Shown here: positions 1,182 through 48,768 of the stretch, one piece after another | How positions within the stretch are numbered: position 1 is the stretch's first letter | How the letters are laid out: each line of letters opens with the position of its first letter | DNA from: Atriophallophorus winterbourni | Lineage: Eukaryota > Platyhelminthes > Trematoda > Plagiorchiida > Microphallidae | DNA: 64,000 nucleotides | Assembly: GCA_013407085.1 (NCBI GenBank) | Contig: JACCGJ010010799.1 | Coordinates: 1-64,000 of the forward strand | Direction: 5' to 3' | Notes under the pieces: generated by a model | Seen by the model: only the letters and a program-made list of their open reading frames with translations | Told to the model about the DNA's origin: nothing | Database searches by the model: none | Program-made: the position numbers and the translations under genes

Positions 1182-1220
1182 ACATTTGTGCTTATGCGAA
1201 CATAGGTTGCGGCTGTTGCA
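1182..1220 (-). pseudogene. Copy A micro-exon, 39 nt (type MFA) with internal stop
   Basis: The acceptor is CAATTTCAG and the donor is T|GTAAGT, phase 1-1. It reads QQPQPMFA and then TAA where copy B has CAA. If included, the protein would end before GH2. Confidence 0.62.
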
Positions 1221-7446: not shown

Positions 7447-7488
7447 TCATTTGGGGCTGCATGAAAGCTTGCGGTTGTGGGGCAGGCA
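7447..7488 (-). CDS. Copy A micro-exon, 42 nt (PAPQPQAFMQPQM)
   Basis: The acceptor is CATTTTTAG and the donor is A|GTAAGT, phase 1-1. Flanks resemble those of the exon at 7852 about 405 nt away, so the two arose by a local duplication. Confidence 0.62.
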   Translation of the reverse strand, partial: CLPHNRKLSCSPK

Positions 7489-7851: not shown

Positions 7852-7893
7852 TCATTTGGGGCTGCATGATTTCTTGAGGTTGTTGTAATGGCA
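7852..7893 (-). CDS. Copy A micro-exon, 42 nt (PLQQPQEIMQPQM)
   Basis: The acceptor is CATTTTTAG and the donor is A|GTAAGT, phase 1-1. The splice sites are intact. Together with 7447 and 8255 it shows that the PxPQ exon class multiplied in copy A whereas copy B amplified the MFA/QPQPM classes. Confidence 0.62.
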   Translation of the reverse strand, partial: CHYNNLKKSCSPK

Positions 7894-8254: not shown

Positions 8255-8287
8255 TCATTTGAGGCTGCAAGGGTTGCGGGGTAGGCA
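8255..8287 (-). pseudogene. Copy A micro-exon, 33 nt, dead donor
   Basis: The acceptor CATTTTCAG is intact; the body encodes PTPQPLQPQM in phase 1-1. The donor reads A|ATAAGT, so the invariant GT is lost. It is homologous to the copy B exon at 40619 with an internal 9-nt shortening. Confidence 0.62.
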
Positions 8288-9887: not shown

Positions 9888-10245
9888 CAGAAGTTGTCAT
9901 GTATGGAGAGCGTAGAGTTAGCAATGTGTTTTCTCCAACAGCTATGTTACAAAGTTTTCCTAGCACATCCTCTTTGGTAGATCCTTCAAAAGACTTCCCG
10001 TTGATGGATACAATCTGATCGCCAATTGCAACGAGACCACGAGAAACGCATGAAGCCTTTTCAAAAGTTCCATTAGGTTTCATTCGTTTGATAAACAATA
10101 TTCCACATCCAAGATCTTCCAAGCTGATCCCGAATGAATCTCCCTCTCGTTGTATCTCAATTTGCTTCCGGACACTAGCGCTCAAATCACTACTCAAAAG
10201 GCGATCCATGTCAACTTCATTGGTGTTACGTGTGCAATACATGAT
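9888..10245 (-). CDS. Copy A PDZ exon, open but with a 9-residue deletion
   Basis: This 358-nt exon has acceptor TTTAATTTCAG and donor TCTG|GTAAGT, phase 0 to 1, as in copy B. It reads IMYCTRNTNEVDMDRLLSSD, loop FGISLEDLG, GLVAIGDQIVSINGKSF and LLTLRSPY. Compared with copy B it lacks 27 nt covering most of SIFAHIRG just before the PDZ fold, a segment conserved in GIPC. The PDZ core itself has no stop and many replacement differences from copy B, so it may have stayed under selection for a while. Confidence 0.72.
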
Positions 10246-14323: not shown

Positions 14324-14517
14324 AGTTTTATACCAAACCCTTCAGCAATCTGTTGGCGCAGTTCCGAAATAGTTTCGAATCCATCAATGGCAATCATGTG
14401 ACTGCCAGTGGCAAGTTGACACTGAAACATTTGTGATCCTGACTGCACGGAATATGTCTGAAAGTTACCACTAACCTGATTGAATTAGAATGGTTGCTTC
14501 GTTTGGCAGGCAGCTAA
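14324..14517 (-). pseudogene. Copy A GH1 exon, broken
   Basis: This 194-nt exon is the counterpart of the 201-nt exon of copy B. It has the same TTTTCCAG acceptor and GTACGT donor. It reads through MFQCQLATGSHMIAIDGF and ISELRQQIAEGFGIK, clear GH1. The start Met is replaced by AAG, an in-frame TAA lies at 14485-14487, and the 3' end has lost 7 nt net (KDSE replaced by CT), leaving phase 2 where the PDZ exon needs phase 0. Confidence 0.75.
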
Positions 14518-20310: not shown

Positions 20311-20441
20311 CTATTTATTTACCGTCTCGAATATTTTCATTGCCGCTAACGCTTTAATGTCCACCCCCAATTTAGGTTTGAGATAGAGGATAAAATTGGT
20401 AGTTGATGAAACCTGTTTTGCAAGCTCCATGACTTTGGCAG
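20311..20441 (-). CDS. Copy B terminal exon: second half of GH2, stop
   Basis: The acceptor is TTGATTTCAG, phase 1 in. The split codon C+CT gives Pro, then AKVMELAKQVSSTTNF, a hydrophobic segment, and LGVDIKALAAMKIFETVNK followed by TAG at 20311-20313. This parallels the GH2 pattern ELA..MVELGK...N...LAEALDERLGDF..PDEFVFDVW. The C-terminus is several residues shorter than usual. A GTAAAT directly before the stop could be an alternative donor, so a further small exon cannot be excluded. Confidence 0.68.
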
Positions 20442-23400
20442 CTGAAATCAAAAAGGAATCATACGATGACTAATTGATAAGCACTTGATAAATTTCATAA
20501 ACAACGGTCGATAAAACTCAAATTTCCATGGATAGATTAGTGTTAAATTATTCTCAAAAGCTTTTACTTGCCCGCCATTTGCAACTCGTTCATTGTCAAT
20601 ATTGATTGGATGTTGACGAGCGTTACTCTTCCGGTGTATTATTCAATAGACATTTGTGAATACCTATTCCCGTTTTAATATAAAAATACGTTTGCGAAAG
20701 TTCTTTTCTAATATGTTTCATCATTTTTGCATTCAGTATATTTTCATTCAGCGTTTCAGCACTTAAACAACGTGATTTCTGAATGTTTGCACTGCTGATT
20801 CCTGGGGATAATCTAGAAGATTATAATTAAGACATTTCCCGTATACTGTTGATAGAATAAATGAGGTCTCTCTATGGCATGCACATATTCTTACATTGAA
20901 ACTTCGAATTCTTACAGAAATAGTTTAACGAAGTTACATCTATTCCGCTCATTGCAAACCGAACACTAGAAAGAGAAGTAAGGAGTGAAGAAAAAGTAAG
21001 GGATTTGTCAGAAACACAGACATTGATCCTCGTTGAATGTTTGAAACCCTTGTAGTGTCAGCAAACCGCAATACAATATAATTACGTGTCGGTATCTGAA
21101 GCGATCAAGGTTCTCCAAATTTAGATTTGCATGTCACCTTCAAATAAGGTATCAACAGGATCTCCACCTCATGATGGAATACAGCTAGAAACCGGTAGTG
21201 GTGTGTAAGTGCGGGGGAAGTGAGCAAAGCTTCACTTTGGTCATCCATCAGCGCTTTGAGTGCTGGACCAGGATTCACTATGTGATTCTGTGTTTGAACA
21301 CCGTGGCATTTAAGTATATCTTTGTTTGCCAATTATCCACTTTCTCCAGGTTCTCTGAACGTGATCTTACCATCTCCACCTGATGTCTGCAAACAGCCAT
21401 GAACCGGTATTGGTGTGTAAGGGATGGGGATGTGAGCAGCCCAATACATCAACCAAGTGTCAATTTTCAATTGTTTTTCATTGCTTATTATTCTTTAATA
21501 GCAGAAATGAAAGTCCTAAATTACGTAGTAATATATTAATTGCTTCAATCCAATCTTGAGAAAACGAAAAGTGTTTTTCAGTAATGTTCAGTTGAGTTTG
21601 AGGGTTATGTATTACATTTTTTCAACGGATAACACATGATAAATTCTTAAATATTCGCATTGGAAATATTGAATTTATTGTCAATGATAAGCTCGAAATT
21701 ATTTGATTCTTAATCAATCACTCGAAAATTGACAACAGAATTCCAAAGACATAATTTGAATCTTGCAAAATGTCTTCAATAATCCATCGTACTTATATAT
21801 AGACTGTTGATTAATATAGACAAGCAATGAAAAAATTCAGTTTTACAATACATTTATCTCAAAGTGCTTGTTTGTATATCTTAAGAAAGCTGCCAATTTT
21901 GGTATGAATTTCATTAAAATTATATAATGTTTCTTACACAAGATTCAATTCTTTTGAACGCATGTGGTTGATTTAGTTATCTTCGGAAGTGCGAGACAGA
22001 TAAAGTTAGGAAACAACATGCTGTTTGCGTCTCATTTAGATTGACACTTGTAGGAGTTGATACTTGTGGAATCTTTCTGTGTACAAGATAATGTTGTGAT
22101 ACGTACACCATGGTTTCACACCATCAGTGCAATTTTCTCGGTTAAATACTCTTCAGTACGAATGATCACGTGTTTTATAAAACCTATCTTTAGAGCCTGT
22201 GACGAGTTGGTCATGTGCACAGAATGGAAATAGGTTTTACACCGAAAGATCTACTCTGTGGTGAATTGAAATACCAAAATCGAGCATTGACTACAATTGG
22301 GCATTTGTAGCAAAGACGTTTGCCAAAGAGATATGAAAGCTCTTGACATTCAGCCTACGATTTAGCAAGAACTTGCTGTTGACCACTCATCTTATAGTCA
22401 ATTTTCAAATTGTCGTCAGCAAGCTGAAGAATTGGACATAATGTTATTGGCCGCGAATGGTAAATCACGCTGTCCACGTTCAACTAAAATCGTACTTCCC
22501 AGTACTGATAATCGTTGTGCATTTCAGTGGAAGAGATTGTTTTGTTTATCCATACTAAAAGCTGTCGAGCAATTAACCATGATGCGATATTGAAGCACAT
22601 ACTAGATGGACATTGACCGACGGATGCAAACAACACTTCACGGAAAGCACTGCCATTCTAATAAATATACAACTTCGAAAGTTCTTCAAATCGCTCATCA
22701 ACATAAAATACACTCCTCAAGATCATTTACCATAAGGCCGCGAACATATATATATATATATATTATGTGATTTCGAAACATCCGGAAAAACAGTGGTCGA
22801 CATAATACTCAAGACATTCGAGACTCACGTAATTTGTCATCATAGTTATTGATTTCCTTCTTCAAAATTTCAGCAACAGCTTTCTCCTTCGGATCTTCTT
22901 TCTGTAAAATATATTTATCTAGATAATTTGTTCAACTTTATGCTTTATAATCATATAAAGCGACGGATTTCGGGATTCAAGTTTTAGGATATGAAAATAT
23001 TTTAGTCGCATCGGGTAAAACTTTTGATATATCGAAGAACACCGCTAGACAAAGAAGTAGAACAAGTCTTAACTAAAGATATTTAGAATTTAAGCTCACG
23101 TATATCGTTGAAAAGAAAACAAGAATCTCCACTAATTATTCATAAAAATATTCGAAAAAATATTTATCATATCAGCGTATATATGTTGACCATAACTGTA
23201 CAATATGAAGTTTATTTGTGTGAAGAATTCTTGAGCTTTTACGCAAAGTGATTATGATACGACGTTCGAGCAACGCGAAAAACTGTAAAAAGTCCGGAAA
23301 ATATGGCAGGTGAACTGTTCAATATATGTATTATAATACATGAGAGACACGAAGATCACCAAGCTCTTTAAGATTAATGGTGATAGCGGCATCTACAATA

Positions 23401-29400: not shown

Positions 29401-32400
29401 GGTAGCGAAATCGCTGTTCAAATGGGCCGTGTTCACAACATCAATCATATACGCACCCAATCGTAACATACTACATGCGTTTGACAAGTTGAGGTCACGT
29501 TTAATCTGATGATTGTTTCTATAATCGTGTACTGATGAGGTGTTTATTTTAGTGATAGCTGGCTGTCTAAGCAGCTAACCAACGATTATATACCATTGCA
29601 AAGTGTGCAACAGGTGTGTTAGATTGAAGCTGGATGGGACACCCAACGAACTTGCGGCCCCTTTTCGCAACATTCGGTCCAACATTCGTTCCAACCACTT
29701 TACCGCCCGCGTTGCACGCACCAACATTAATTGTCTCTCGATTCATCCCCGAGGTCAACCTGTCCAAAGCTAATCCCGTTCACCCACGTTCATAGACGTT
29801 TATTACTCGCAAGTCAAATAACAAAACGCACGATTATCTTACATAGACAAACAAACAATCAGTGAATGTCCATCAGTGAATGTGACAACACCAGTTTAAA
29901 AAATCAGTCACATATTTTCGAACTTCATATCAAATTTATTGATAATTTCGTATTAATCGTCATTAATACTTCATCGTATTTGACATGGAGCTACTTTATC
30001 ATGTTTCGAGATCTTGTATATCCCAAACGTATTGTTTTCAAATATTTCCATTAATTTCCATTATTAATATAATTTATCTAAAAATCGAAAAAAATTCGAT
30101 CAAAATTCGACATTTTCACAGATGTTCTGCATAGCCGATTTGGAAAAGCAGAAACTTAGTGGATCATGAGTGATTATTATTTGTTTGGCTAACCTTGGGT
30201 GCCACCAGGCTTAACATTGGTACGAAGTTTCCTCCGAAATATCCCATTTGTGCCGCTGGAAATTGAACAAATAAATAACATCATGAGATTAAGCTTGTTG
30301 AACCATTGAATGTGCATGTAAATTTTTAGGACGATATATGGAGCGAGAATAATTTTGATGCTCCATTGAACACGAGCTCATATGATCATGTTGATAAAAT
30401 AATCAAAAAATACGAAACAAGACCGTGTGTTTTCCAGCCTATTAGGCGTTTTTAATCGATAGGTGCAAATTTCTATTACACAAACATTTTCATCGGGTAG
30501 ACAAAGTTTGCGGTCAATAATGCAGAATTCATTGTATTGAATTGTAAAGACAATATCCAATAATCTAGCGGTGCAGAAACACAAAGGTAAGACATTCTTC
30601 ACTTATTTATTGTTTACAAGAATACAGTAAAACGGCGCGAAAAAAAACGTCTGACAATGCGTTTTACTTATCATCCATCCTTGAATCCTTAAATATTTCT
30701 AACGAGAAAATTAGGAAAAATTTGTTAACTTACACGGTTGGGCTTGTGCGAACATCGGTTGCGGCTGTTGCACTGTAATAGAAGTGAGAAGTAAAAACAC
30801 ATATATTTGCATGCATTTCCATCACACACACAACTCGTTACCGGATTCGGTTGTTTGCACTCATCAGGTATGGGACAGTAGAATCAGGATCCGCATGCGC
30901 TTGAAACAGATGAAGAATGGTAAACATGTTGCGCTTGTATGCCACTGTTGCATAAGTTTGGTACAACACCGTTTCAAGCACATGTGGATATTGACCTTAC
31001 CTGATGAGTACAAACAGCACGAAACCGGTCGTGGGGTATGTTTGTGATAGAAATGATAGCAATTGAAATTTTTTTTATTGTCATGGACTTAAAATATGTC
31101 TACATGTGTGTGGTCTCGTGTGATTGAACAGGTTGGTCGTACCAAACCTTACGAAACAGTGGCATACATGCGCAACTGGTGAACAAATTATTAATAATCG
31201 CAGGCCGCACATGAACTGCGATTATTAGAATATCAGAGGAAAAATACTCAATTCGATCACATCATTTTGAGAGTAAGAATCCACCAAATGGTCACGCAGA
31301 TCCAGAGCAAACAAATTTAAAGTCTGAAAGATTACTTCTGAACAGTTTTTGAAATTGGAATTCAGTATCAAAATATCTACGACCAAATTCGGTTAAAATT
31401 GGTTATATTTTGACTAAATTGAAAAATAAATAGAAAATGAAAAATAAAAAAAATTATTTTTACTACAAAGGACGCAATATATATGATAAATATGTTTCAG
31501 ATTTTAAATTAACTGATCCACATGAATATATTTTCATTATTTAAAATATCAAATCGACATGACAAATCACTCGTTTGGAAGATAAACCAGTTTCATCAGT
31601 TTCATCCATTTTCATCACACAACAGACGACAGGTTTTGTCATCATCAGGCAGGGAATGTACAATCAACTTCTGCATGACTTAACACTGGATAAATGATAA
31701 AGAATGTGTCAACTAGAAAGCCACTGATGGATGATGCTAACGCTAACTACTTGTTCAATCAAGTCGTGTGCATCCAGATTGTACTTTATCTAACTTAAAT
31801 GTACAGAAAGCATCAATCCGTTCGTGGGGTGCAGTTGTGATCAAGAGGCATGCAAATATGGATCTCTTATCCGATCCCTTGGGTGAAACCCAATTTGTAT
31901 TTATGTGCGCACATATAATTAAACTGATTGTTATGGAACGGGGACACAGATGTTCAAAAATTGATCCCAACATTTTGATTTATGAAAACGTTTAATTAGC
32001 ATAACTTACTGATGGGTTGTGGTTGAACTGTTTGGATGAATAAAGAATCAACAGGTCATTCACCAATCACGGTATCTGAATTAAAGCTGATTATTCAAAA
32101 TTAGTGCTTCGATGCAAAGTATTTAAAAAATGCACTCGTTTTAAGAGCAAAATATAAAATTTACTTTCAAATGTCATATTAAAAAATGCATATTATTTTC
32201 TGGATGCAAGTCCAAATGTGAACTTTATAGTTGCTTTATTGTACTCTGTCCGGCAATGATATCCAAGCTTAAGATTAAACGAAACCCAGATAAGGAAATC
32301 TTTTTCTCCGGTAGTCCAAAGCAGATCATGCGTGCCAAGCTGATACCTTTGGTTCACAGATTTTTCAAGCCGCAGCAATTTTCATCAAATTGTAAATCAT

Positions 32401-38400: not shown

Positions 38401-41400
38401 AAAATTTACTTTCAAATGTCATATTAAAAAATGCATATTATTTTCTGGATGCAAGTCCAAATGTGAACTTTATAGTTGCTTTATTGTACTCTGTCCGGCA
38501 ATGATATCCAAGCTTAAGATTAAACGAAACCCAGATAAGGAAATCTTTTTCTCCGGTAGTCCAAAGCAGATCATGCGTGCCAAGCTGATACCTTTGGTTC
38601 ACAGATTTTTCAAGCCGCAGCAATTTTCATCAAATTGTAAATCATTTGACTGGAACCAACGAAACAAGGTGCACAGACCCCGTTGTAATGCCGCACAGTC
38701 ATTAACACACCCAACACGTTTCAATATTTTTATATAATCGGCAAAGAGTATTAAGTTGCATCCAATTTCCTCTACTATATCGTCTATATACACCAAGAAT
38801 AGTAGAGGTTCAAGCACCGATCCTTAAGGAACTCTACTTGTGACGTCTTTTCTTCTAGCGAACTTGCTGCCAACATGAAGTTGGACGTGTCTATCGGTGA
38901 GAAAGTCCCTTATGCAATTCAGCAATATTCCCGTTATTACACAAGTTCCGAGCTTTTTTATTAAAATGTCATGGTTGACTCTAGCGAAAGCTTTGGAAAT
39001 GTCGATGTAGCAAGCAAGTACAGCCTCACCTTCGTCTAATGCCTCAGTCCAATCTTCGAACCTTGTAAGAAGGTTAGATAAACAGCAACGATTTCTTCGA
39101 AAACCGTGTTGTGCTGCGGTCAAAACGTTCTCTTATGCGCACAGTCAAAATGCGTTATATCAATTTGAAGATTACCGAAAGTAGCGTTACAGGTCTATAG
39201 ATTTCTGTGTCTGAACGGCTACCACCCTTATAAGTAAGAGTTATCAATTCTGACTTTCAATGCGATCTTATGTTGTCTTCATGTAGGCTGAGATTGAATA
39301 AGTGCGTGAACGGAGCATTCAAAGAAATTCGACACCTGCGAATTATGGCGGGGGTAATTTTGTCTGCGCCAGGAGACTTCTTTTCGTTAAGTTGACAAAG
39401 TTCCCTCCCAACAGTATATTAATTGACAGTCATTTCACTGCAAATAGTTTATTACACAAAAACAAAGTGACGTGAGTGTGTTGGCCAACGTTATGTATGA
39501 TCCACACCGATCGAAGCTAATTCACAGAGCATACATTTGCTGTCTCACTGCAAATAATATCCATCTATGAACGGCGCGAAAATCACGTCTGACAATGCGT
39601 TTTACTTACAACGAACTCCGCTTATAACGAACATTTTACTCTCTCCTCAGCGATTCGTTGTACCCGTGTTCCACTGTATTACAGTTTTACATTTTCATTC
39701 TGTGGTGTTGTAAAGTGATATTTTTCACTATTATTCAACCTTTCTTTAAGTCTTAATGTCGTGGTGTTTTACAGTGTGAACTATTCCAATCATCCATCCT
39801 TGAATCCTTAAATGTTTCTACAGAGAAAAAGGAGAAAATGAGGTGGACTCCCGATCAATATTTTTTCATAGAACAATTTGTGAACTTACACGGTTGAGCT
39901 TGTGCGAACATCTGTTGCGGCTGTTGCACTGTAATAGAAGTGAGAAAATGGAGTTATAATAAGGCACATAAACGTAGAAACACATATATTTGCATGCATT
40001 TCCATCACACACACAAATCACATCAGGTATGGGACAGTAGAATCAGGATCCGCATGCGCTTGAAACAGTTGAAGAATGGTAAACATGTTGCGCTTGTATG
40101 CCACTGTTGGATAAGTTTGGTACAACACTGTTTCAAGCGCATGCGGATATTGACCTTACCTGATGAGTGCAAACAGCACGAAACCGGTCGTGGGGTATGT
40201 TTGTGATAGAAATGATAGCAATTGAAATTTTTTTGTTTATGGTCATGGATTTAAAATATGTCTACATGTGTGCGGTCTCATGTGATTGAACAGGTTGGTC
40301 GTACCAAACCTTACGAAACAGTGGCATACATGCGCAACTGGTAAACAAAAATTATTATTAATCGCAGGCCGCACATGAACTGCGATTATTAGAATATCAG
40401 AGGAAAAATACTCAATTCGATCACATCATTTTGAGAGTAAGAATCCACCAAATGGTCACGCAGACACAGAGCAAACAAATTTATAGTCTGAAAGATTACT
40501 TCTGAACAGTTTTTGAAATTGGAATTCAGTATCAAAATATCTGCGACCAAATCCGGTTAAAATTGGTTATTTGGTATCACCTGCGTCAATTTATTTCCTT
40601 TCGAAATATACGACTTACTCGCTTGGGGCTGCGTGAATCCTTGCAGCTGCGGGGGAGGCACTGAAAATGTTTCGTGTGAATAATACGATTTCTGAATTGA
40701 CGTTATAACTACTAAAGATTATTCCTAGTAAATACCGACCTATTCAATCACACATATCCAGATGGGGACAAATACATAGGGTTTAAAATAATCGTCATTT
40801 CTATCCATTTCAATCAAACACACAATTGAACTGATTACCCGATCTTTCCTGTCATCAGTTTTATACAGTAACTCATGATATGCAATTATTGAAACAGTGT
40901 ATAAACGGTGAACAAGAAATGATAGAGTAAGCTACTTTGGATGATAATGGTACGAGAAACCAGTTCAATCACTTGTTCACACACATACATCCAAATGTGA
41001 ATTAACCTATGTGCGTGAACTAATTCCATAATTGCATGCATTTCCATCGCATACAGACAAACACACCATATTAGAGTAGCAAGTAACCGGAAATGAGCTT
41101 AGATTTCAACGTCTTAATGGCTTGCGTATCTTGATCTTAGTATGTATAACTTATACGTTTTGACAGAACTGAAGCGGTCGCTGTGTGTGTGATTGCTACG
41201 AATGTAAATGAGGATATTTTCCTCTGTTCACATTGAACATCACGTATATTCATCATTATATTAATGTCTTTCACTAATCTGCAATACACAAAAGCTCAAT
41301 ATCGAATTGACGAGCTTGAATTTCTAACGAGAAAATTAGGAAGGGTGGACTCGCGATCAATATTTTTTCATAGAAAAATTTGTTAACTTACACGGTTGGG

Positions 41401-44400
41401 CTTGTGCGAACATCGATTGCGGCTGTTGCACTGTAATAGAAGTGAGAAAATGGTGTCATAATAAGGCACATTAACGTAAAACACATATATTTGCATGCAT
41501 TTGCATGCACACTAACGACGCCTAATGCACTTTTCAATTAATGATACACCAATATTACTTATTTAAATTTTTTTAAACTCAGCAATCATATGCATTTGAG
41601 TTTATTTATCACATTGTTACAACGTAAAAAATTAATGTTTAATTCATCTTTAAATATCATTTTACCGAACTCAAATAACCAAATTAATTTATAACAATTT
41701 CAGTATTATAATGAGTTATTATCAGATTTCGATTACGGTACTTATGTACGGCGCTCTGCAGTGCATCGTCTGTGAGTCGGGTTGTATCGGATACTAGTAT
41801 CAGCTGCCTGCAATTGATGTCGTTCTTCTGAGTGCAGCCCAGTGTTTTGAGCTCTGTGAAAGAGAGTAATCCTCCGTGTATACAGCATAATCGTTTCACT
41901 CAAACGAAGTTTCGGAAGTTTTTCCATATTAATCATTGCAAAACGTACTTCGTGTATACATACACAGTCTTTGACACAGTGATTAAAGGAAGACTTCACG
42001 CTATCCAAAACGATTAATGATAAGGTTACTAAAATGATCAATGGATTGCTTATTCTACCACTTCAGCAGCGACTGATTATACTCAGATTGTGCAATAACG
42101 AGGAGCACATGATATGACCTAATTCTGATATACCGAATAATCCATACGGTGTCGCACTCCCGCTGCCAATTATTGAAAAATGGTTCAGAAGGTCCCCCCA
42201 CACAGCCATTATCTCACCTTTCACCTTTTCGACTTGAATGTATCCGAAACTTCCATTCAATCCGTTTATGTTTTCTCTATAACACTTTACCGTCAGGTCG
42301 ACATTAGTTGAAATGATATTCAAATTAATGATACCAAATCTCATGTTCAATGATAGAGTATTTGCTTCAAATTACTGAAAACCATCAGCGCAAATTGTTT
42401 ACCATTGTTCGACTGTGGCAACGACAAGCAAATCATGATTTCATGTCCTAACCAGATGAGTGCTTGTAACACGAAGCCTGTCGTCGTGTATGAGTTATGG
42501 AAATACATGAAAATGGGCTAGTTTGTTCATAGTCATGGGTTCAAACCCTGTTCACATGAGTGTGGGCTCATGTGATTAAACAGCTTGGTCCTACCTAACC
42601 TGACCCAACAATGGCATACAAGCGCAACTAGATTACCATTCTTCGACTTTCTCAAGCGTATGCGGATATGATCCTACTGCGGCGGCCTTCAAATCGGCCG
42701 TGCATATAATTAATTTCTCCGCAGGTTTTTTCAACATTTTTCGTTAATTGTCAACGCTAGCTGTGGGCAAAATGCATCAATTTTCGTATCAACTGAGGCC
42801 AATTTTCGACGCGCAATTTTGAACGAATTACGAGATACCGGGAATAGTCGTGACACTTTTGTCTCAAAACGTTTGGTTACACCATTTGTCAATAAACTGG
42901 AACACATGTGGAAATAATCAACAAAGACGGAAAAGAAACATCGTAGTAGTGAGGACCCGCTTTTAATAATAGCCCTGCTGCGCGGCAAGGTACTGTATAC
43001 CAGCAACGCGAAACACTGACGAAATTCGTTGACAAACCACGATGTTTAAATAAAGAATCAAAGAGTGATTATTTGTCAAGCGCTAGAGACGTTCAACATA
43101 ACGAATGTCTTGTGGTGATCACACTCCCAGCACTCAAAATCCGCAGAGGGTGTCCTGCTGTTTGTCTTCATCAGGTTAAGATTGTAATCTTAGTTTCATT
43201 TAACTGTAACAAATAGTGAGTCATTTGTAAACAAACATCATAATTCGTCGTACGAACCCTAGTTGCATGCATATCCATGACAGATGTATAAATTTGGCTA
43301 ATGCTCCGTACGAGAATTGACATTGATTTATAGGAGGGTGAAATCACAATAATAAAATCTGTTTTGTGTGTATGTGTGACAGATATGAAAATGATAATGA
43401 CGAATCAAATTTAGAGTGTTAACACGTAGAAAGTGATCATCATTTTGCAAGGTGTTGGTGCGATCGAACTGTAAGTATGTCACCTAATAATTAGACTGCG
43501 CTTCCTAAACCCGGACATCATGGTCCAGAAACATATTTTACGTCTAGCTCTTTTAAATCAACAACATATTAGGCTTTATGATGGATTTTACACTATGCCA
43601 TGTGTTGAGCTCTTCGGACGAATGGACCTGAAGACTCCTTAACTCAAAGAAAGATGAATTTATGCTCTTATATAAAAATTTAGAATTGTCTCACACTCAT
43701 GAATTAATTGTACCAAATACAAAATACTCGCACCATCCGAGGTCACTGTTACATGCTGGAAATATCACACCCCATGCGGAAATGCCAGAGGTATAATTAA
43801 TCGCTGTGTGCTTTGTTTTGAATATCTTATTTACCAGTTTGGTTATCTCCAATTGTTTAGATTTATTCAACTTGAAAAATGAAGGCTAGATGTGAGATAA
43901 CCCTGGCATTTCCCACCAGCCTGTAACAAGTTAGCTCACTCATATGGAACAAATCGTTTTGTTAACGTGTATCTATACTTAAAACCTGGCGTTATTGTAT
44001 AATTGAATGCTTTCTCAACCAAAAATCTGGAATCTTCAAATGTCAAGTATGAATCACCATTGAAAAATGATTTCAGAAAAAAACAAGTTGATAAAATTCA
44101 CCACTTCACACAAATAAAACTATTATTTTCTTCCAAACTGCTGTTTGCGATAAGGGAATCAATTTTTTGGATTTAAAAATAATAAAAAAATATTTGAATA
44201 AAGTATTCATATTGCATAGACTTTTAGTATAGACTTTTTTCAAATCAAAATGAAATTTAGTGTCGGAAAAGTCACCTAAATTAGTGAATTAGAATGGGAT
44301 TGAGAATGATTCAATTAAACTAGTGTCCATATTCGTTAGAGCCAATAGATTTTGATCTGCGAAATAATGCTATTTGATCCCGTGTATATTTCGTACCTTG

Positions 44401-47400
44401 AAGTACGAGGTAAGACTAATTCGAGGTGGTGTGATTTAGGGCAATTTAATTATGCTCCATGTTCTAACTATTTTTCTGTGCCAGAGGCGAAACGCAGCCC
44501 AAAATCCGCTCTAACAGTTGATATTCAAATTTCATTTTCATGGCAATGTCTAATTGATCGGACACAGAAAACTATTCATTACATAATCGTGAAAATATGT
44601 TTTAGATTGCGTTATACTCTGTAATCATTCTTGCAAACAATGACCTTACGTAGCCATGTCAACTACAAGTTAAAGGACGATGACCCCATTTATGTAAAAT
44701 ATAGAATACAAAGTTAACAATGTCAATATATTCACACTTACCAATAATTGACTTGTATGGAGAGCGTAGAGTTAGCAGTGCGAATTGTCCAACAGGTATG
44801 CTATGAAGAAATCCTAGCACATCATTTTTGTTAGAACCTTGGAAAGACTTCCCGTTGATGAATTCAATCTGATCGCCAATTGCAACTAGACCATGAGAAA
44901 CGTTTGAAGCGTTTTGGAATGTTCCAAGAACTTCCATTTGTTTGATAAACACAATTCCACATCCCAAATCCTCCAAACCGACCCCGTAAGAATCTCCCTC
45001 TCGTTCTATGTTAATTTGCTTTTGGACACCACGAATGTGAGCGAAGATGCTATCACTACCGCTCAAATCACTACTCAAAAGGTGATTCATGTCAACTTCA
45101 TTCGTGTTACGTGTGCAATACATAATCTGAAATTAAACGATTATAACATCGTTTGAAAACCATTTATTTTGCACTATAATTAGAGGTACCAATTAATTTT
45201 GAAGAAAACGTGAACTTGTAAGCCACTTTTGCGTTAGGTTGAGTGTACTAACCTGTTCAAACATACGTATATCAGATTAAGCTCATGGTCTTTGAAAATC
45301 ATCATCTTTGCATGCATTTCGATCACATAAACACACATTACGGGAGGTAACCAACACTTTGCACTCATCAGATGGTGACAGTACCGTAAGGATCCACATA
45401 TCTTAAAGCAGCGAAGAACTGTAAAGAAAGCGTGAATTTGTCTGTCGCTTTTGGGTGACTTTGACGAGACCAGCCTTGTGAAGCACACAGCACGTAGATG
45501 CGTTAACCCAAGAAGTTGAACGAAAATGTTCATTTGAATGCATTCCCCTCACACTCATGTCATTCGCATTCTGAGCAAACTGTAACCAACGGAACGAAAG
45601 CGGTCGTGAATTTTGTTTGAGGGAACTTTAAGCAAATGAATATTTCCGTTGATGACCAAGAGCTCAAACAATTCTGCCTGTGATGTGGCACACAAGCGCA
45701 TCTTGTTTACCGTTCTCCCATTGTTTCAATATCAAGCTGATTCTTATCCTACTGTCCAAAACTGATGACTCCAAGCAGCACGAACCCAGTCGTGGGGCTT
45801 TTAGACTATTCTATTTGGTTGATAAACATGTTCATATTGAATACTTTATATGAAAGCACATATAATCCTAACGCTTTTAACTACGCTTTCTACTATTCGG
45901 AACAAAATCTGATAAAAGTTTACATTAATTTTAATACCCAGTAGTATTAAATAAATAACAATTTTAATTAAATAATGAAGTTTTACCGTTGTCAACTAAA
46001 AAATAAATTGTTAGCTAAGAACAAACTAAAAATATACGGAATCAAGAATCAACATTTTATGGTGATCAAATCAATCTCTCTACATGTATCATTGGATGAC
46101 AACTATAAAGAATACGTATGATGCAATCAAAATTCTATTGAGGTGTTTGGTTTGTGTGAGTTCATATTCGGTGAATATACAGGCCCGATAGTGGAGTGCT
46201 CTTTGATATAAGCATCCAGTTTCGATTTGAAATTAATGATCGTAGGAGCGTTCACAATATCCTGTGATAGTGAATTCCACAGAAAGCAAATACGTACTGA
46301 GTAGAAATGACGTTACAATCGAGTCTTGATTGCCGTATAACGAGACAACTTGAATACGAGCATTTTATTTTGGATGGATATCAGTATTTTTAAAGCGGGG
46401 TGCGCCTAGGGAGAAAACAACTCAAATATTTTCCTCAACCTTCCCAATATACAGCTCTATCTGCTGAAGACTTTCTAACAATCACTATTCGGTTTCAGGT
46501 TATTGGTAATCCAGATACCGTGATCCATTCTCAGCGCTGCTCCAAGTTAATTTTTCATGACCAACATTATATGTATGCTTGCACTGCCGGCAAAGATGTA
46601 ACATTTTACATTTACTTATATTCAAACGAATCGGATTTAATTGAGACCATTGATAAATAGCATTCAAATCCACTTGCAGCATCAAACAATCTTTAATGTA
46701 TCGGATTTGCTTCCATGTTTTCATTTCAGCATTATCAAAAAAGAACCACATTCCATCGTACTATCTTCGTAAAATAATTTACGTATAACAAGAAAATGAT
46801 ACGCCCGAGCACTAAACATTGAGGTATGCCGCTATGGACATTGATGGCTTTTGATTGAACGCCGTCAAGTGTCTCGCAATTTCCGATCGGTCATATAATC
46901 CATTAACCACGATAAGAAGTTTCCTGTTATAGGATATTACACTAGCTTTGGCAGAATGAGTCTGTGGTTGACCTTATCGAATGCTTAAGATACATCAATA
47001 TATCGGGCATGAACTGGGTATCCCAGGTCAAGAGACGTTGCTCAATCATCCCGAGTGATGAGTAAATTTGACGGACAAGATCTGTTTCGGCGAAACCAAT
47101 GTTGCGCTGCTGTTAAAAGTCCTTTAGTTTTTAGGCAATTCACTGTAGGCTCAGTTAGGATCTGCTCCATAATTTTCGACATGAAGGGCAGGAGTCTAGC
47201 AAGCCTGTAATGTGCTACACCGGAACTACAGCTACCTTGTAAATTGGTGTTATCACAACAGATTCGCATATTGACGGAACGCATCCTTCGCTAAGTTTCC
47301 CAACAAAAAATCCGCTTGACTGTTTGGAAGCTGTGTACAACATGCGCGAATAATAGCTGGGGTAAAGTTCTCCACACCCGGGGATTTTATCCTATTTAGT

Positions 47401-48768
47401 CGCCGAAGGTGTCGTTCAAATCTAATTTGTAAAACTAATGTTTCAGTCAGAGGTTTTATTGAGCTTGATGAACCATGATGCAATAATTGCTGTTTTGGGC
47501 AGAACGCTTTAGAACATTCACTGTCACTTGAAATGTAGCAGTCATTCTTTGTTTTTTTTAATGAATTGAAACCACATGGTTTCAAAAGCTTTGGATTATG
47601 ATCCATTTTTTCTACAATGCGTTGCTGGTACTGTTGTTTGTCCTGCCGAACGAAGGCGGTCACTGTGTTCCGTATTCGGCAAAAATGAAACCAATTTGCA
47701 GGAGTAGCAAGATCACAATATATGTAACCAAAGCGACAAGAATGTGTAGCATATTTTCGAAATTGTTCTTTCAACGGGCAACTATTATATCCAGTGGAAA
47801 GTTCCAGCTAATTAATAAACAAACGTGCATAAAGTTTCATACAATTGGTAATGCAATAAATTTTTAATGTAACAAATATTGATGTAATTATATCCGAAAC
47901 TGATTTCAAAATTATTGCTGTTTTCGGTTGCATATTGCAAATGGCTTCTCATATATATGCTGCAGGTTAAATGTGCTAATAAATTGATTCATTATGTTGT
48001 TGGATCGGATGATTGTGTAATGGTTCTAGCAGCTTTACAACGGGCTTGCAGAGTGATTCGTCAATAGCAAGATTTTTCCAGTGCCAAGACCTTTCAAAAT
48101 TTTATTGCAAGCGTAATAGAACCACAATTCCCGTCGCCACAAACATTGAATTCCCCATTTTAACTTTCCATAAATTATATCTTTCCGAATACTAATAATT
48201 ACAATTCTGTACACAACAATCAGCCAGCCTATGCTGCTCAGTCGTGTTACAGTCAGCATGTTCGGTAGACCAGCTTTCGAAAGCACGTCTGCATATGCGA
48301 CATATGATTCGTTGAATACAGCGATGTTCTTTTGCTTTGCTTATAAAAGGAAGAAGTACATATATACATAATAATATGTAGCAATGTATAAGTTGTTAAT
48401 TATGTTTTACGATTAATGTTTTCAAGTGTTATTTCGTGTATTATTTCACAAAAATATATAATAAAATATCTAAGTTTATTATTATTATTGTAAGGCAGTA
48501 GTTCCCAATCTTATAGCATCTTATATCTCATGCGGTTCAGAAACTTGCAGAGAGAACGATTACGTACCTCAGAATCTTTTATACCAAAACCTTCAGCAAT
48601 CTTTTTGTGCAGTTCCGCAATACTTTTAAACCCGTGAATCATAATCGTGTGACTGCCGTGGGCAAGTTGACACTGAAAGATTTGTGGTCCTTGCTGCACG
48701 AAATATGTCTGAAAGTTACCTCCAACCGGAGTGAGATAGCATGGTTGCATCGTTTGGCAAGCTGTTAA
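20311..48768 (-). CDS. GIPC-like: GIPC-family PDZ adaptor, copy B (whole spliced gene)
   Basis: GIPC proteins are cytoplasmic adaptors: the PDZ domain binds C-termini of membrane receptors, GH2 binds myosin VI, and GH1 mediates dimerisation and autoinhibition. I see the three domains in order on the minus strand: GH1 exon, PDZ exon, nine Q/P micro-exons, a Gly/Phe/Met-rich exon and two GH2 exons. Phases join cleanly (0-0, 0-1, nine 1-1, 1-0, 0-1, 1-end). The total from the first Met in the GH1 exon is 1125 nt, or 374 codons plus stop, against roughly 310-330 residues in typical GIPC. The excess is the Q/P linker of about 97 codons between PDZ and GH2. Introns range from under 1 kb to over 7 kb and are full of retroelements. 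The 5' end is uncertain: the GH1 exon begins after an acceptor-like TTTTCCAG, so an upstream exon or a trans-spliced leader may precede it. The domain match is from recognition, not a database search. Confidence 0.82.
20314..20319 (-). terminator. AATAAA overlapping the copy B stop codon region
   Basis: The minus strand reads GTAAATAAATAG at the end of the reading frame, so an AATAAA hexamer sits immediately before and against the TAG stop. If used, the 3' UTR would be only some tens of bases long. Assignment as the working poly(A) signal is inference. Confidence 0.35.
20442..21149. other. Intron of copy B, nothing identified
   Basis: AT-rich sequence between the two GH2 exons with no recognisable element. 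Confidence 0.4.
21150..21440 (+). repeat. Tandem hammerhead-like repeat, about 218-nt period
   Basis: Two motif copies, ACCTCATGATGG...GAAACCGGTAGTGG (near 21167) and ACCTGATGTCTGC...GAACCGGTATTGG (near 21385), bracket a monomer with CACTTTGGTCATCCATCA and a GATTCACTATGTGATTCTG inverted repeat. Both cores carry substitutions (CTCATGA; GAAC), so they look inactive. Confidence 0.5.
21441..22179. other. Intron of copy B, nothing identified
   Basis: Low-complexity AT-rich sequence without assignable features. Confidence 0.4.
22180..22680 (+). mobile_element. RTE-like 3' fragment
   Basis: Degraded plus-strand copy of the RTE C-terminus, with remnants of VHRMEIGFTPKDLLCGELKY and KRDMKALDIQP, then the ATGGACATTGACCGACGGATGCAAACA region homologous to 5950-5980. 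Stops are frequent. Confidence 0.6.
22829..22901 (-). CDS. Copy B exon: first half of GH2
   Basis: This 73-nt exon has acceptor TATTTTACAG and donor TTAC|GTGAGT, phase 0 in and phase 1 out. It encodes KEDPKEKAVAEILKKEINNY and DDKL. The EKAV..I...I..Y pattern fits the start of the GIPC GH2 helical domain (EKAIEKVDDLLESYMGI in vertebrates), the myosin VI binding module. It is 7.3 kb downstream of the previous exon. Confidence 0.68.
23400..24302 (+). mobile_element. RTE-like RT fragment, interrupted at 24302
   Basis: Plus-strand pieces include VFRNERSTVNMIFSL, FEIRRGVKKGCALAPTLSGI (RT motif: RSGVKQGCVLAPTLF), IADNHLQDTEIDKRIDRAA and LNSRV, followed by a frameshifted KLT.KTK segment. The element stops abruptly within the GSET motif region at about 24302, where another repeat begins. 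Confidence 0.65.
24304..24895 (+). repeat. Dispersed repeat, copy 1 (paired with 26107-26700)
   Basis: Nearly identical to 26107-26700 over its first 370 bases, more divergent afterwards. It begins GTTGTAGTTTTCATGTGCGG and interrupts the RTE fragment. In the 26.1 kb copy the same sequence directly follows a hammerhead motif, and the shared part starts three bases before the expected ribozyme cut. Confidence 0.7.
25110..25175 (-). mobile_element. RTE 3' scrap
   Basis: The minus strand reads GATGTACATCCATGGTCGAC and continues like 5937-5985 of the RTE 3' UTR. It is too short to say more. Confidence 0.5.
25475..26106 (+). repeat. Hammerhead-bearing dispersed repeat
   Basis: Contains GCATTTCCATCACACAC, the minus-strand hammerhead at 25503-25543, a GCATGCGCTTGAAACAGTG arm, and the reversed arms ending in the degenerate plus hammerhead at 26074-26115. 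Inverted hammerheads at the two ends match the family layout. Confidence 0.6.
25503..25543 (-). ncRNA. Hammerhead ribozyme motif
   Basis: Minus strand: CCCTAC, CTGATGA, GTGA-AAACA-TCAC, GAAA, CCGATC, GTGGG. The core is complete. Helix II is GTGA/TCAC where other copies have GTGC/GCAC, a compensatory change. Helix I pairs CCCTAC with GTGGG. Helix III is ACCGAT, one change from the palindrome ACCGGT. Confidence 0.65.
26074..26115 (+). ncRNA. Degenerate hammerhead motif
   Basis: AACTAC, CTGATGA, then CCGC-GAACA-CCCA (no longer paired), GGAA instead of GAAA, CCGGTT, GTAGTT. Helix I pairs perfectly (AACTAC/GTAGTT) and differs from other copies on both strands. Core and helix II are now broken. 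Confidence 0.5.
26107..26700 (+). repeat. Dispersed repeat, copy 2 (paired with 24304-24895)
   Basis: The body sequence lies downstream of the hammerhead at 26074. See the 24304 entry. It contains ACCACAAAATATGAGCAAAT and a GTCCGGACAAG motif near its end, shared by both copies. Confidence 0.7.
26701..27469. other. Intron of copy B with a short hammerhead-repeat scrap
   Basis: Bases 26870-26945 resemble the ...TGCTGTTTGCACT...GGGACAGTA... arm of the dispersed repeat. Otherwise nothing is identified. Confidence 0.4.
27470..27724 (-). mobile_element. Possible RTE endonuclease scrap
   Basis: The minus frame reads IRVRRQSTVIFRGLKLPKIN and VATLRDTHLRDV, resembling the N-terminal endonuclease motif of RTE elements (...I.I.ALSETHL.D). 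It is short, isolated and uncertain. Confidence 0.3.
27725..30193. other. Intron of copy B, nothing identified
   Basis: AT-rich. Small open frames have no recognisable content. 29.57-29.77 kb on the minus strand (NVGACNAGGKVVGTNVG) may be a retroelement scrap, but I cannot assign it. Confidence 0.35.
30194..30255 (-). CDS. Copy B exon: Gly/Phe/Met linker before GH2
   Basis: This 62-nt exon has acceptor CAATTTCCAG and donor AAG|GTTAGC, phase 1 in and phase 0 out. It encodes AQMGYFGGNFVPM followed by LSLVAPK. It converts the phase-1 micro-exon chain to the phase-0 start of GH2, which is why I place it here. No GIPC counterpart is known to me. The donor is weaker than GTAAGT. Confidence 0.66.
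30734..30772 (-). CDS. Copy B micro-exon 9, 39 nt (type MFA)
   Basis: The acceptor is CTATTACAG and the donor is T|GTAAGT, phase 1-1, encoding QQPQPMFAQAQP. It is the last linker exon. Its final T joins CG of the next exon to give Ser. Confidence 0.72.
30995..31036 (+). ncRNA. Hammerhead ribozyme motif, block 1
   Basis: CCTTAC, CTGATGA, GTAC-AAACA-GCAC, GAAA, CCGGTC, GTGGGG. The core is intact. Helix II has one A/C mismatch compared with the GTGC copies. Confidence 0.62.
32010..32027 (-). CDS. Copy B micro-exon 8, 18 nt (type QPQPI)
   Basis: The acceptor is CCAAACAG and the donor is A|GTAAGT, phase 1-1, encoding QPQPI. It has the same length as the other two 18-nt exons but with ATC instead of ATG before the donor. 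Confidence 0.6.
32190..33560 (-). mobile_element. CR1-like RT fragment in block 1, partly duplicated
   Basis: The minus frame reads QHGFRRNRCCLSNLL, ACYIDISKAFARVNHDILIK, DVTSRVP, then a stop where Gln of the PQG motif belongs, GSVLEPLQFLVYIDDIVEEI and LFADYIKILK. The catalytic FADD is FADY. The RT part at 32187-32556 repeats 32569-32940. Confidence 0.75.
34026..34064 (-). CDS. Copy B micro-exon 7, 39 nt (type MFA)
   Basis: The acceptor is CTATTACAG and the donor is T|GTAAGT, phase 1-1, encoding QQPQQMFAQAQP. It lies 2930 nt from the copy at 36956. One synonymous difference (CCT for CCG) sits near its 3' end. Confidence 0.72.
34290..34331 (+). ncRNA. Hammerhead ribozyme motif, block 2
   Basis: CCTTAC, CTGATGA, GTGC-AAACA-GCAC, GAAA, CCGGTC, GTGGGG. 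All core nucleotides are consensus. Helix II has four Watson-Crick pairs. Helix I pairs CCTTAC with GTGGGG using two G-U pairs. Helix III ACCGGT is a palindrome without a loop, so cleavage would need two molecules or tandem motifs. Predicted cut after GTC at 34325. Confidence 0.72.
35324..35341 (-). CDS. Copy B micro-exon 6, 18 nt (type QPQPM)
   Basis: It is identical in sequence and splice sites to the exon at 38255 and lies 2931 nt from it. Phase 1-1, encoding QPQPM. It belongs to the block starting near 33941. Confidence 0.62.
   Translation of the reverse strand, partial: FNHNL
35490..36480 (-). mobile_element. CR1-like RT fragment in block 2
   Basis: Same fragment as in block 1 with the same VP[stop]GSVLEP and FADY changes, plus one extra base near 35972 that shifts the frame after LNCIRDF. 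Confidence 0.75.
36956..36994 (-). CDS. Copy B micro-exon 5, 39 nt (type MFA)
   Basis: It lies in the tandem block starting near 36871. The acceptor is CTATTACAG and the donor is T|GTAAGT, phase 1-1, encoding QQPQQMFAQAQP. It has the same sequence as the exon at 39890 and lies 2934 nt from it. Confidence 0.72.
37220..37261 (+). ncRNA. Hammerhead ribozyme motif, block 3
   Basis: Same sequence as the block 2 motif. Predicted cut after 37255. Confidence 0.72.
38255..38272 (-). CDS. Copy B micro-exon 4, 18 nt (type QPQPM)
   Basis: This 18-nt exon has acceptor CCAAACAG and donor A|GTAAGT, phase 1-1, encoding QPQPM between split codons. Its copy-A relative at 2506 is 33 nt because it contains an extra MQPMM-type unit. 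The acceptor has a poor pyrimidine tract, so splicing may be weak or regulated. Confidence 0.62.
   Translation of the reverse strand, partial: FNHNL
38430..39420 (-). mobile_element. CR1-like RT fragment in block 3
   Basis: Same fragment with the same inactivating changes. The palm segment QHGFRRNRCC to TSRVP is open over 99 codons (38824-39123). Confidence 0.75.
39890..39928 (-). CDS. Copy B micro-exon 3, 39 nt (type MFA)
   Basis: The acceptor is CTATTACAG and the donor is T|GTAAGT, phase 1-1, encoding QQPQQMFAQAQP. It lies in the partial fourth tandem block (39801-40571). The protein segment is identical to the exons at 36956 and 34026. Confidence 0.72.
40154..40195 (+). ncRNA. Hammerhead ribozyme motif, block 4
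   Basis: Same sequence as the block 2 motif. Predicted cut after 40189. Confidence 0.72.
40619..40660 (-). CDS. Copy B micro-exon 2, 42 nt, Q/P-rich (type PPPQ)
   Basis: The acceptor is CATTTTCAG and the donor is A|GTAAGT, phase 1-1, encoding PPPQLQGFTQPQA. It is the single copy-B counterpart of the three PxPQ exons of copy A at 7447, 7852 and 8255. The flanking intron (40572-41170) aligns with 8200-8700, so this exon belongs to the ancestral gene rather than to the recent block array. Confidence 0.72.
41392..41430 (-). CDS. Copy B micro-exon 1, 39 nt, Q/P-rich (type MFA)
   Basis: The acceptor is CTATTACAG and the donor is T|GTAAGT. The exon runs phase 1 to phase 1 and encodes QQPQSMFAQAQP plus split codons at both ends. 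It follows the PDZ exon, whose last base G plus TG makes Val. It is nearly identical to the exons at 39890, 36956, 34026 and 30734, differing at the fifth residue (Ser here). Its surroundings (41311-41500) resemble the ends of the downstream tandem blocks, so it is probably the oldest or the founding unit. Confidence 0.72.
41431..44741. other. Intron of copy B after PDZ
   Basis: A hammerhead-repeat remnant lies at 42390-42690 (CAGATGAGTGC near 42455, GCAACAATGGCATAC arm; core broken). From 42940 the sequence aligns with 8830-9880 of copy A. 41.68-42.04 kb has open minus frames I cannot assign. Confidence 0.4.
44742..45126 (-). CDS. Copy B exon: GIPC PDZ domain
   Basis: This 385-nt exon has acceptor TTTAATTTCAG and donor ATTG|GTAAGT, phase 0 in and phase 1 out. 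It begins IMYCTRNTNEVDM and contains SIFAHIRG, both characteristic of the GIPC segment leading into PDZ. The PDZ fold follows: carboxylate-binding loop YGVGLEDLG, then GLVAIGDQIEFINGKSF (beta/alpha core with the conserved GD.I..INGKS) and a final LLTLRSPY strand. The loop GVGL fits a GLGF-type ligand pocket. It is open and carries no decay marks. It differs from copy A by 27 extra nucleotides encoding the SIFAHIRG region, which A has lost. Confidence 0.86.
45240..45810. repeat. Degraded hammerhead-type dispersed repeat
   Basis: Counterpart of 10390-10970. It contains GCATGCATTTCGATCACAT, a minus CTGATGAGTGC near 45365 and a plus CTGATGACTCC near 45761 without a proper GAAA. Confidence 0.45.
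46400..47850 (-). mobile_element. CR1-like LINE relic in copy B intron
   Basis: The minus frames read TAFVRQDKQQYQQRIVEKMD, LRRLNRIKSPGVENFTPAII (RT entry), AAQHWFRRNRSCPSNLLITR and VDLNAIYQWSQLNPIRLNIS. Stops and shifts are numerous. It is the homologue of 12000-13330. Confidence 0.68.
47990..48310 (-). mobile_element. RTE-like relic in copy B intron
   Basis: The minus frame reads MLSKAGLPNMLTVTRLSSIG and DIIYGKLKWG, the RTE C-terminal VLSKAGL...YGEL pattern. It is the homologue of 13600-14060. Confidence 0.55.
48568..48768 (-). CDS. Copy B exon: GIPC GH1 domain
   Basis: This 201-nt exon is open throughout, with acceptor TTTTCCAG at its high-coordinate side and donor GAG|GTACGT at 48567. 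The first Met is codon 7 (48748-48750). The core reads QLAHGSHT...GF..IAELHKKIAEGFGI, which matches the GH1 signature of GIPC proteins (LAHGS, GF, KELYGKIAEAF). It ends in phase 0 and joins the PDZ exon to give KDSE-IMYCTRNT, equivalent to the conserved stretch between GH1 and PDZ. The residues before GH1 (QPCYLTPVGGNFQTYFVQQG) are a variable N-terminus. Whether translation starts at this Met is inference. Confidence 0.8.

Follow-up and report, generated by a model that had tools for sequence, protein, structure and literature searches.

A GIPC-related gene family in Atriophallophorus winterbourni with a predicted Q/P-rich linker encoded by micro-exons after the PDZ domain

The locus described here raises the question of what kind of protein is encoded where exons resembling those of a GIPC adaptor are followed by a long series of very short exons, and what such a series may do. 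The window, i.e. the whole stretch of DNA analysed, comprises 64,000 nucleotides, which are bases 1-64000 of contig C6955 in an assembly of 537 Mb and 15840 contigs. The spliced-frame reconstruction revealed a gene, designated A, on the minus strand (48768-20311), with AG/GT borders at all junctions, a TAG stop and, as the first-pass annotation had stated, phases that join to a frame of 374 codons. It seems on balance probable that gene A represents a GIPC-derived family in which an array of micro-exons would encode a variable, flexible spacer linker after the PDZ domain. The exons of gene A are the following:

48568..48768, minus strand: exon 1, first part of GH1; ATG at 48750, donor GTACGT, AG before 48768 (the AG ending at 48769, read by eye)
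44742..45126, minus strand: exon 2, end of GH1 and PDZ; leaves in phase 1
41392..41430, minus strand: micro-exon 1, 39 nt, phase 1-1; VQQPQSMFAQAQP including the junction codon
40619..40660, minus strand: micro-exon 2, 42 nt; LPPPQLQGFTQPQA including the junction codon
39890..39928, minus strand: micro-exon 3, 39 nt (joined frame and scan)
38255..38272, minus strand: micro-exon 4, 18 nt (joined frame and scan)
36956..36994, minus strand: micro-exon 5, 39 nt (joined frame and scan)
35324..35341, minus strand: micro-exon 6, 18 nt (joined frame and scan)
34026..34064, minus strand: micro-exon 7, 39 nt (joined frame and scan)
32010..32027, minus strand: micro-exon 8, 18 nt (joined frame and scan)
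30734..30772, minus strand: micro-exon 9, 39 nt (joined frame and scan)
30194..30255, minus strand: 62-nt exon; SAQMGYFGGNFVPMLSLVAPK including the junction codon; a 68-nt form is modelled in paralogues C and E
22829..22901, minus strand: GH2-like exon a; KEDPKEKAVAEILKKEINNYDDKL; protein identity 100% with C and 71% with E
20311..20441, minus strand: GH2-like exon b and the stop TAG; protein 100% identical in C

All nine micro-exons are entered and left in phase 1 and have AG acceptors and GTAAGT donors. Together they would contribute 97 residues, and each of the 512 combinations in which they can be skipped stays open (512/512). The micro-exon linker is thus firmly present as a genomic feature. 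The N-terminus of the predicted protein, MQPCYLTPVGGNF, was found by eye to be devoid of a hydrophobic core such as a signal peptide would have.

The GH1 domain was recognised in the spliced protein by the family model PF25083 with 88.6 bits (cut-off 28.4) over the full model, at residues 24-90. The GH1 part contained in the PDZ exon alone scores 28.9 bits, and this rise on splicing indicates that GH1 is correctly joined across 48568/45126. The structure of GIPC1 (5v6b) matches residues 24-194 with an E-value of 6.8e-31, and a profile comparison of gene A with 15 vertebrate GIPCs gave an E-value of 2.1e-29. The GIPC ancestry of the GH1-PDZ part can therefore be regarded as firm on the grounds of sequence and profile similarity, in agreement with the earlier assignment of these two domains to the GIPC type. 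The HMM search of the joined protein proposed as a check bore out the assignment in part: GH1 was recovered, the general Pfam PDZ model did not reach the PDZ exon of gene A (it does reach that of a second copy, B, in the window), and the GH2 model PF25082 gave no match. NCBIfam likewise contained no match for the PDZ exon or the GH2-like part of gene A. At the position of the class I PDZ histidine of GIPC1 (H191), an alignment by eye shows lysine in A, B and E and threonine in C and D; among the aligned PDZ exons of this genome, the histidine is kept only in F1 and F2. An AlphaFold2 model of the gene A PDZ exon alone reached a pLDDT of 35.6 and was set aside. Protein database searches with gene A yielded no match at 1e-5 among 7030 candidates and none at 0.01 among 88 candidates, and a control search with GIPC1, which recovered 2032 proteins, contained no flatworm name among the best 120, some of which are nameless.

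The C-terminal part requires more caution. The first-pass annotation had identified it as the myosin VI-binding GH2, and this identification found no support. PF25082 did not match the gene A protein at E-values up to 10, while the control, the GH2 of GIPC1, scores 93.5 bits. The segment FAFPDEFVFDVW, which contains F319 of GIPC1, a residue of myosin VI interface II according to PMC5461112, has no counterpart in gene A or in paralogue C, which has the same protein here; this comparison covers A and C, since the last exon of paralogue E lies beyond the contig end. A weak likeness in register with GIPC1 was detected. When the C-terminus was compared by hhalign with full-length GIPCs, residues 270-309 of GIPC1 were picked (E 0.078); the profile score of the GH2-like part was reached by 4 of 967 shuffles, and shuffle tests, run with three matrices in two modes against two references, gave values of 0.0005-0.07. 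A PDB search with the C-terminal part of gene A found no GIPC. The C-terminus can be called marginally GH2-like as judged from these comparisons, and a function as a myosin VI adaptor appears doubtful.

On the scale of the whole genome, the six-frame, unspliced searches found no canonical GH2 (PF25082) at E 1 and no myosin VI cargo-binding domain (PF16521) at E 0.1, two candidates having been scored for the latter. The GH1 domain, though split by an intron, was recovered by the same six-frame route. The genome searches with PF25082, PF16521 and GH1 gave no match in any of 14 control genomes; because the searches were unspliced and the control genomes silent, they do not demonstrate that GH2 and Myosin-VI_CBD are absent from the genome. 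The two partners of this interface may have been lost, or may have diverged, together. These results bear on an alternative in which the three 3′ exons of gene A would encode an unrelated helical C-terminal segment that replaced GH2, the family having left the myosin VI pathway. The missing PF25082 matches in protein and genome, the lack of a counterpart to the segment with F319 and the genome search without a Myosin-VI_CBD match speak for such a replacement. It is opposed by the weak in-register likeness to GIPC1, by the unspliced mode of the genome searches with their silent controls, and by the report of Mu et al. that conservation in their GIPC alignment is lower for GH2 than for GH1 and PDZ. 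The replacement is a real possibility, though less likely than not. GH1, PDZ and the GH2-like part may be joined in one transcript; their order and phases are the same in A, in C and, as far as exon a, in E.

The micro-exons were also sought by a scan of both strands of the window for AG-(12-75 nt)-GTAAGT segments in any phase, open and with at least 40% Q+P. On the minus strand the scan found 15 acceptor-donor pairs sharing 12 donors, nine in gene A and three in copy B, and on the plus strand of the window it found no pair. In 200 dinucleotide shuffles the mean was 0.155 pairs and the maximum 2, so a chance origin of the array is ruled out by the shuffles and the opposite strand. The micro-exons are duplicates of three families (39, 42 and 18/33 nt), so that the 12 donors are not independent events; the count overstates independence, and the paralogues are a better test.

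A genome search with the PDZ exon gave at least nine matches at E ≤ 0.001, A itself included, and a search with the GH1 family gave at least 12, all of them within the genes found with PDZ, with 49.6 bits at exon 1 of A; both counts are lower bounds, since the searches score the best candidates only. Gene A is thus a member of a small GIPC-related gene family and not a lone oddity. Besides A and B, the following members are considered here:

Contig C5978: paralogue D, PDZ exon 94% identical to A
Contig C6955, 197915-229209, plus strand: paralogue C, PDZ exon match at 201787, 91% identical to A
Contig C11130: paralogue G, PDZ exon 77% identical to A; the contig end cuts the gene
Contig C1403: paralogue E, PDZ exon 63% identical to A
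Contig C7676, 58852-56498 and 87795-85212: F1 and F2, PDZ exons 39% identical to A

Paralogue C is inverted relative to A, lies about 150 kb off and is about 97.5% identical to A in noncoding sequence. It is open over 395 residues and has 11 micro-exons (39, 42, 39, 18, 39, 18, 39, 18, 39, 18 and 39 nt); the acceptor of the exon that follows them is modelled six bases further up than that of A, and its GH2-like exons encode protein identical to that of A. Paralogue E is open across 10 exons and has six micro-exons (33, 42, 27, 42, 33 and 39 nt) with five GTAAGT donors and one GTGAGT, followed by a 68-nt exon and GH2-like exon a, after which the contig ends before the last exon. The GH1 exons of D and G are open, as are their PDZ exons within the sequence covered; the comparison of linkers covers A, C and E. 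In F1, the PDZ exon is followed by a single phase-1 exon of 39 nt, while the same scans list no such exon in F2, and neither gave a GH2-like match at E < 1.5. The main stretches of F1 and F2, about 28.7 kb apart, are 96.4% identical in DNA. Upstream of the PDZ exon of gene E there is a further PDZ fragment, interrupted by an in-frame stop (C1403:17244-17074).

Copy B lies in the window itself, downstream of gene A, at 14496-1182 on the minus strand, and runs off the window. Neither B nor the paralogues elsewhere in the genome figure in the first-pass annotation. It is composed of the following parts:

14326..14496, minus strand: GH1 exon; no ATG at the start site of A, an in-frame TAA and a 7-nt difference before the donor (by eye)
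9888..10245, minus strand: PDZ exon, 67% identical to A (73% in the genome search with the PDZ exon) and nine residues shorter
8255..8287, minus strand: remnant of the 42-nt type without a GT donor
7852..7893, minus strand: 42-nt micro-exon (scan)
7447..7488, minus strand: 42-nt micro-exon (scan)
2506..2538, minus strand: 33-nt micro-exon, the long form of the 18-nt family (scan)
1182..1220, minus strand: micro-exon of the 39-nt type with an in-frame TAA

There are thus five micro-exon places in B, and the 39 codons of the three open ones include one charged residue. Copy B is most likely a pseudogene; it was rejected as a functional duplicate, being broken at several points.

The exons of the copies do not consistently diverge less than noncoding sequence. 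Exonic divergence exceeds noncoding divergence between A and C (4.0% vs. 2.45%, p 0.0019), A and B (16.3% vs. 12.6%, p 0.016) and A and E (19.3% vs. 15.8%, p 0.0036, the noncoding value taking in some inversely oriented repeat alignments), whereas the direction is opposite between A and D (2.4% vs. 4.2%, p 0.029) and between A and G (15.1% vs. 18.1%, p 0.09). With 120-base flanks as the reference the A-E comparison keeps its direction, the exons being 81.4% and the flanks 85.3% identical. In GH1 and PDZ of A and E, nonsynonymous divergence is above the noncoding level (21.9 vs. 15.8%, p 0.0008) and synonymous divergence equals it (p 0.90). Among A, B, C, D, E and G, the 15 pairwise dN/dS values of GH1 and PDZ range from 0.43 to 1.64, so that the folded domains seem to be under little constraint. 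A and B differ at 30 PDZ positions for which GIPC1 offers a residue to compare; the GIPC1 residue is present in B at 5 of these, in A at 4 and in neither at 21. The pattern is compatible with rapid evolution in some of the lineages, which is perhaps diversifying. A firm case for positive selection was rejected, since faster exons are seen in A-C and A-E but not in A-D and A-G.

Composition and frame of the linkers have been retained. No charged residue (D, E, K or R) occurs in the predicted linkers of A (97 residues), C (116) and E (72), and Q, P, M, A and F make up 85-93% of them, with Q at 35-39%, P at 21-24%, plus F and M. In C and E, the long, exon-modular, Q/P-rich linker that had been noted for gene A reappears. 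For the frame to stay intact under neutral drift, the estimated chance is 2.7e-4 in A (over 972 nt, without the recent duplicates) and 1.6e-6 in E including splice dinucleotides, or 0.011 for the six micro-exons of E alone. Under simulated neutral drift over the full A-E distance, a path that takes one sequence as its start, the micro-exons of E gain 6.4 charged residues on average, and zero charge together with zero stops occurs with a frequency of 0.0002 for E and 0.0054 for the four unique micro-exons of A. Over half that distance the values are 0.0104 for E and 0.0676 for the four of A, the last not being significant; all these values come from one run each of rough models whose rates were those of noncoding sequence. 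An uncharged linker of E is therefore unlikely under neutral drift in such models. It is the frame, splice sites and composition that appear to be kept, not sequence identity. The two micro-exons of the older unit in A differ from those of a recent unit at 4 of 57 sites and the introns at 55 of 1795 (p 0.105); among the recent tandem micro-exons there are too few differences for constraint to be read from them by themselves.

As to the role of the linker, we favour the spacer. An array of symmetric phase-1 micro-exons would encode a flexible linker after PDZ, and tandem duplication of intron-exon units would alter the number of its modules (six in E, nine in A, 11 in C). Because the frame runs on across any omitted micro-exon, splicing would be free to produce shorter linkers. 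The Q/P/M/A/F segment, which lacks charge, is most likely a disordered spacer that would part the cargo-binding GH1-PDZ module from a putative C-terminal module, loosening their contact, so that linker length would set reach and the strength of self-inhibition. According to PMC5461112, the PDZ-GH2 linker of GIPC1 has 39 residues (219-257), disordered at 219-235 and structured at 236-257, which agrees with the earlier remark that the linker of known GIPC proteins is short; GH2 of GIPC1 partly blocks the PDZ groove, and cargo binding frees it. As inferred from position, the micro-exon array occupies the place of the disordered part of the GIPC1 linker, before the next exon. A worm-like-chain estimate for an extension from 17 to 114 disordered residues gives an effective local concentration about 19-fold lower, with an rms span of 5.9-7.2 nm for 114 residues vs. 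2.2-2.7 nm for 17. The flexibility of a motor-cargo linkage tunes speed (PMC8908270).

The behaviour of the GIPC1 linker and the chain estimate favour the spacer, with a self-associating linker as the main rival. In that case the linker would be a low-complexity segment whose regularly spaced F and M residues, in a Q/P background without charge, would cluster the adaptor on cargo membranes, the copy number of modules acting as valence. The composition kept in all three linkers is in line with such a role. P-rich segments, on the other hand, can remain soluble. That the linker helps mammalian GIPC1 to oligomerise with myosin VI (PMC5461112) speaks for this role, the different sequence of that linker against it; we regard self-association as rather unlikely. 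For the spacer itself a bolder version may be put forward tentatively, in which the linker serves as a tunable ruler: the 2.93-kb repeat unit would add 19 charge-free residues per copy, as an exon-level VNTR between paralogues and perhaps individuals, micro-exon skipping would add further variation, and the partnership of a canonical GH2 with myosin VI would have been abandoned. If true, this would be an intracellular adaptor with the architecture of a micro-exon gene (MEG).

Skipping touches on a further explanation, that the micro-exons are mostly skipped or cryptic and the main product is an ordinary short-linker GIPC-like protein in which the PDZ exon is joined to the 62-nt exon. The frame does survive the omission of all nine micro-exons. 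This explanation is improbable in view of the composition and frame kept in the six micro-exons of E, of the number of modules varying among open genes, and of AG/GT being kept at all modelled junctions of A, C and E. Protein variants arising through the skipping of gene A micro-exons are possible, as the open joined frames suggest.

The growth of the array can be followed in a tandem repeat and an older copy of its unit (no strand assigned):

32553..40572: tandem array of the 2.93-kb unit, about 2.7 copies (self-BLAST)
30670..32555: an earlier copy of the unit, now diverged (90.6-90.8% BLAST identity with gaps included)

The main pair of units shows 98.8% BLAST identity over 5095 columns and the outer pair 97.6% over 2161 columns. 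With every step of one unit, a 39-nt and an 18-nt micro-exon are gained and 19 residues are thereby added. The recent array may vary in copy number between individuals, or the assembly may be imperfect here. Schistosome MEG-26 is a known case of duplicated exon-length patterns (PMC5825161), and the duplication of a micro-exon of MEG-3 was linked to a transposon (PMC8293314). It could also be supposed that gene A is itself becoming a pseudogene or that the array is partly an assembly artefact, given exons that diverge faster than noncoding sequence in A-B, A-C and A-E, a broken copy B, tandem units up to 98.8% identical and a genome in 15840 contigs; this is improbable, because the frames of A, C and E are uninterrupted and their modelled junctions have AG/GT, the estimated neutral chances are 2.7e-4 (A) and 1.6e-6 (E), the C array differs in length, and the GH2-like exons of A and C are protein-identical.

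Compared with GIPC1, GIPC2 and GIPC3, gene A has the same domain order, GH1 followed by a GIPC-type PDZ and a C-terminus with a weak likeness to GH2. It differs from them by the charge-free micro-exon Q/P linker, the replaced PDZ histidine and the missing canonical GH2 signature, and from GIPC1 by the distance from PDZ to the GH2-like part, about 118 residues vs. 39. A fluke GIPC has been described in Schistosoma japonicum (SjGIPC3, AAW24514.1, PMC3504512); it has 328 residues, and conservation is higher in its GH1 and PDZ than in GH2. The SFGL loop of SjGIPC3 is similar to SFGV of C, D and E and SFGI of B and G, the loop of A being SYGV. The words 'exon' and 'linker' do not occur in the main text of that paper. 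In the passages of the literature found on GIPC in trematodes or flukes, on GIPC3 in Schistosoma and on micro-exons with PDZ, no such linker is described, and no paper was found that deals with GIPC and micro-exons together. The nearest published lead is the GIPC3-like gene of Echinococcus granulosus and E. multilocularis, for which exon skipping is listed in both species (PMC5440512, Table 3) and which its authors placed in a group with homologues retrieved only in Echinococcus; the relevant section does not specify the skipped exons. The skipping speaks for a linker adjustable by splicing, the restriction to Echinococcus against it.

Flatworm micro-exon genes, a numerous and poorly understood class (PMC7653826), share with A and C many short symmetric exons, tandem copies and duplicated exon-length patterns. 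The definition used for Hymenolepis in PMC7653826 asks for at least seven exons, at least half of them shorter than 70 nt and divisible by three, in a run of at least four. Coding exons, micro-exons and longest run number 14, 9 and 9 in A, 16, 11 and 11 in C, and 10, 6 and 6 in the partial E. In schistosome MEGs, about 80% of the coding sequence lies in symmetric exons of 6-36 bp, and the products are secreted or membrane proteins (PMC5825161). In gene A, exons shorter than 70 nt make up 26% of the coding sequence, and only three exons have 36 nt or less. A and C are thus micro-exon genes in the Hymenolepis sense and not in the narrow schistosome sense, with 26-29% of their coding sequence in micro-exons that are attached to a conserved adaptor layout.

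It is this placement of a micro-exon array within a known adaptor layout that makes the job of the product assayable. The number of modules (6, 9 or 11, and 0 by skipping) provides a clean natural variable for the prediction that linker length alters self-inhibition, reach or clustering, which can be tested with recombinant proteins. The locus also shows how tandem duplication of an intron-exon unit extends a linker by whole modules.

No Rfam family matched the window at gathering scores. A repeat that we call SINE-like by eye is located at 30805-31180, with copies at, e.g., 1279-1661, 25474-25655 and 37054-37408, and sits just upstream of several 39-nt micro-exons; it may have helped the duplication of the unit. 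An origin of the micro-exons as part of a dispersed repeat was rejected, as no other copies of the exon families turned up in the window, whereas further copies of the SINE-like element did. At 53063-55917 on the minus strand, large frames resembling the reverse transcriptase and endonuclease of a non-LTR retrotransposon were recognised by eye.
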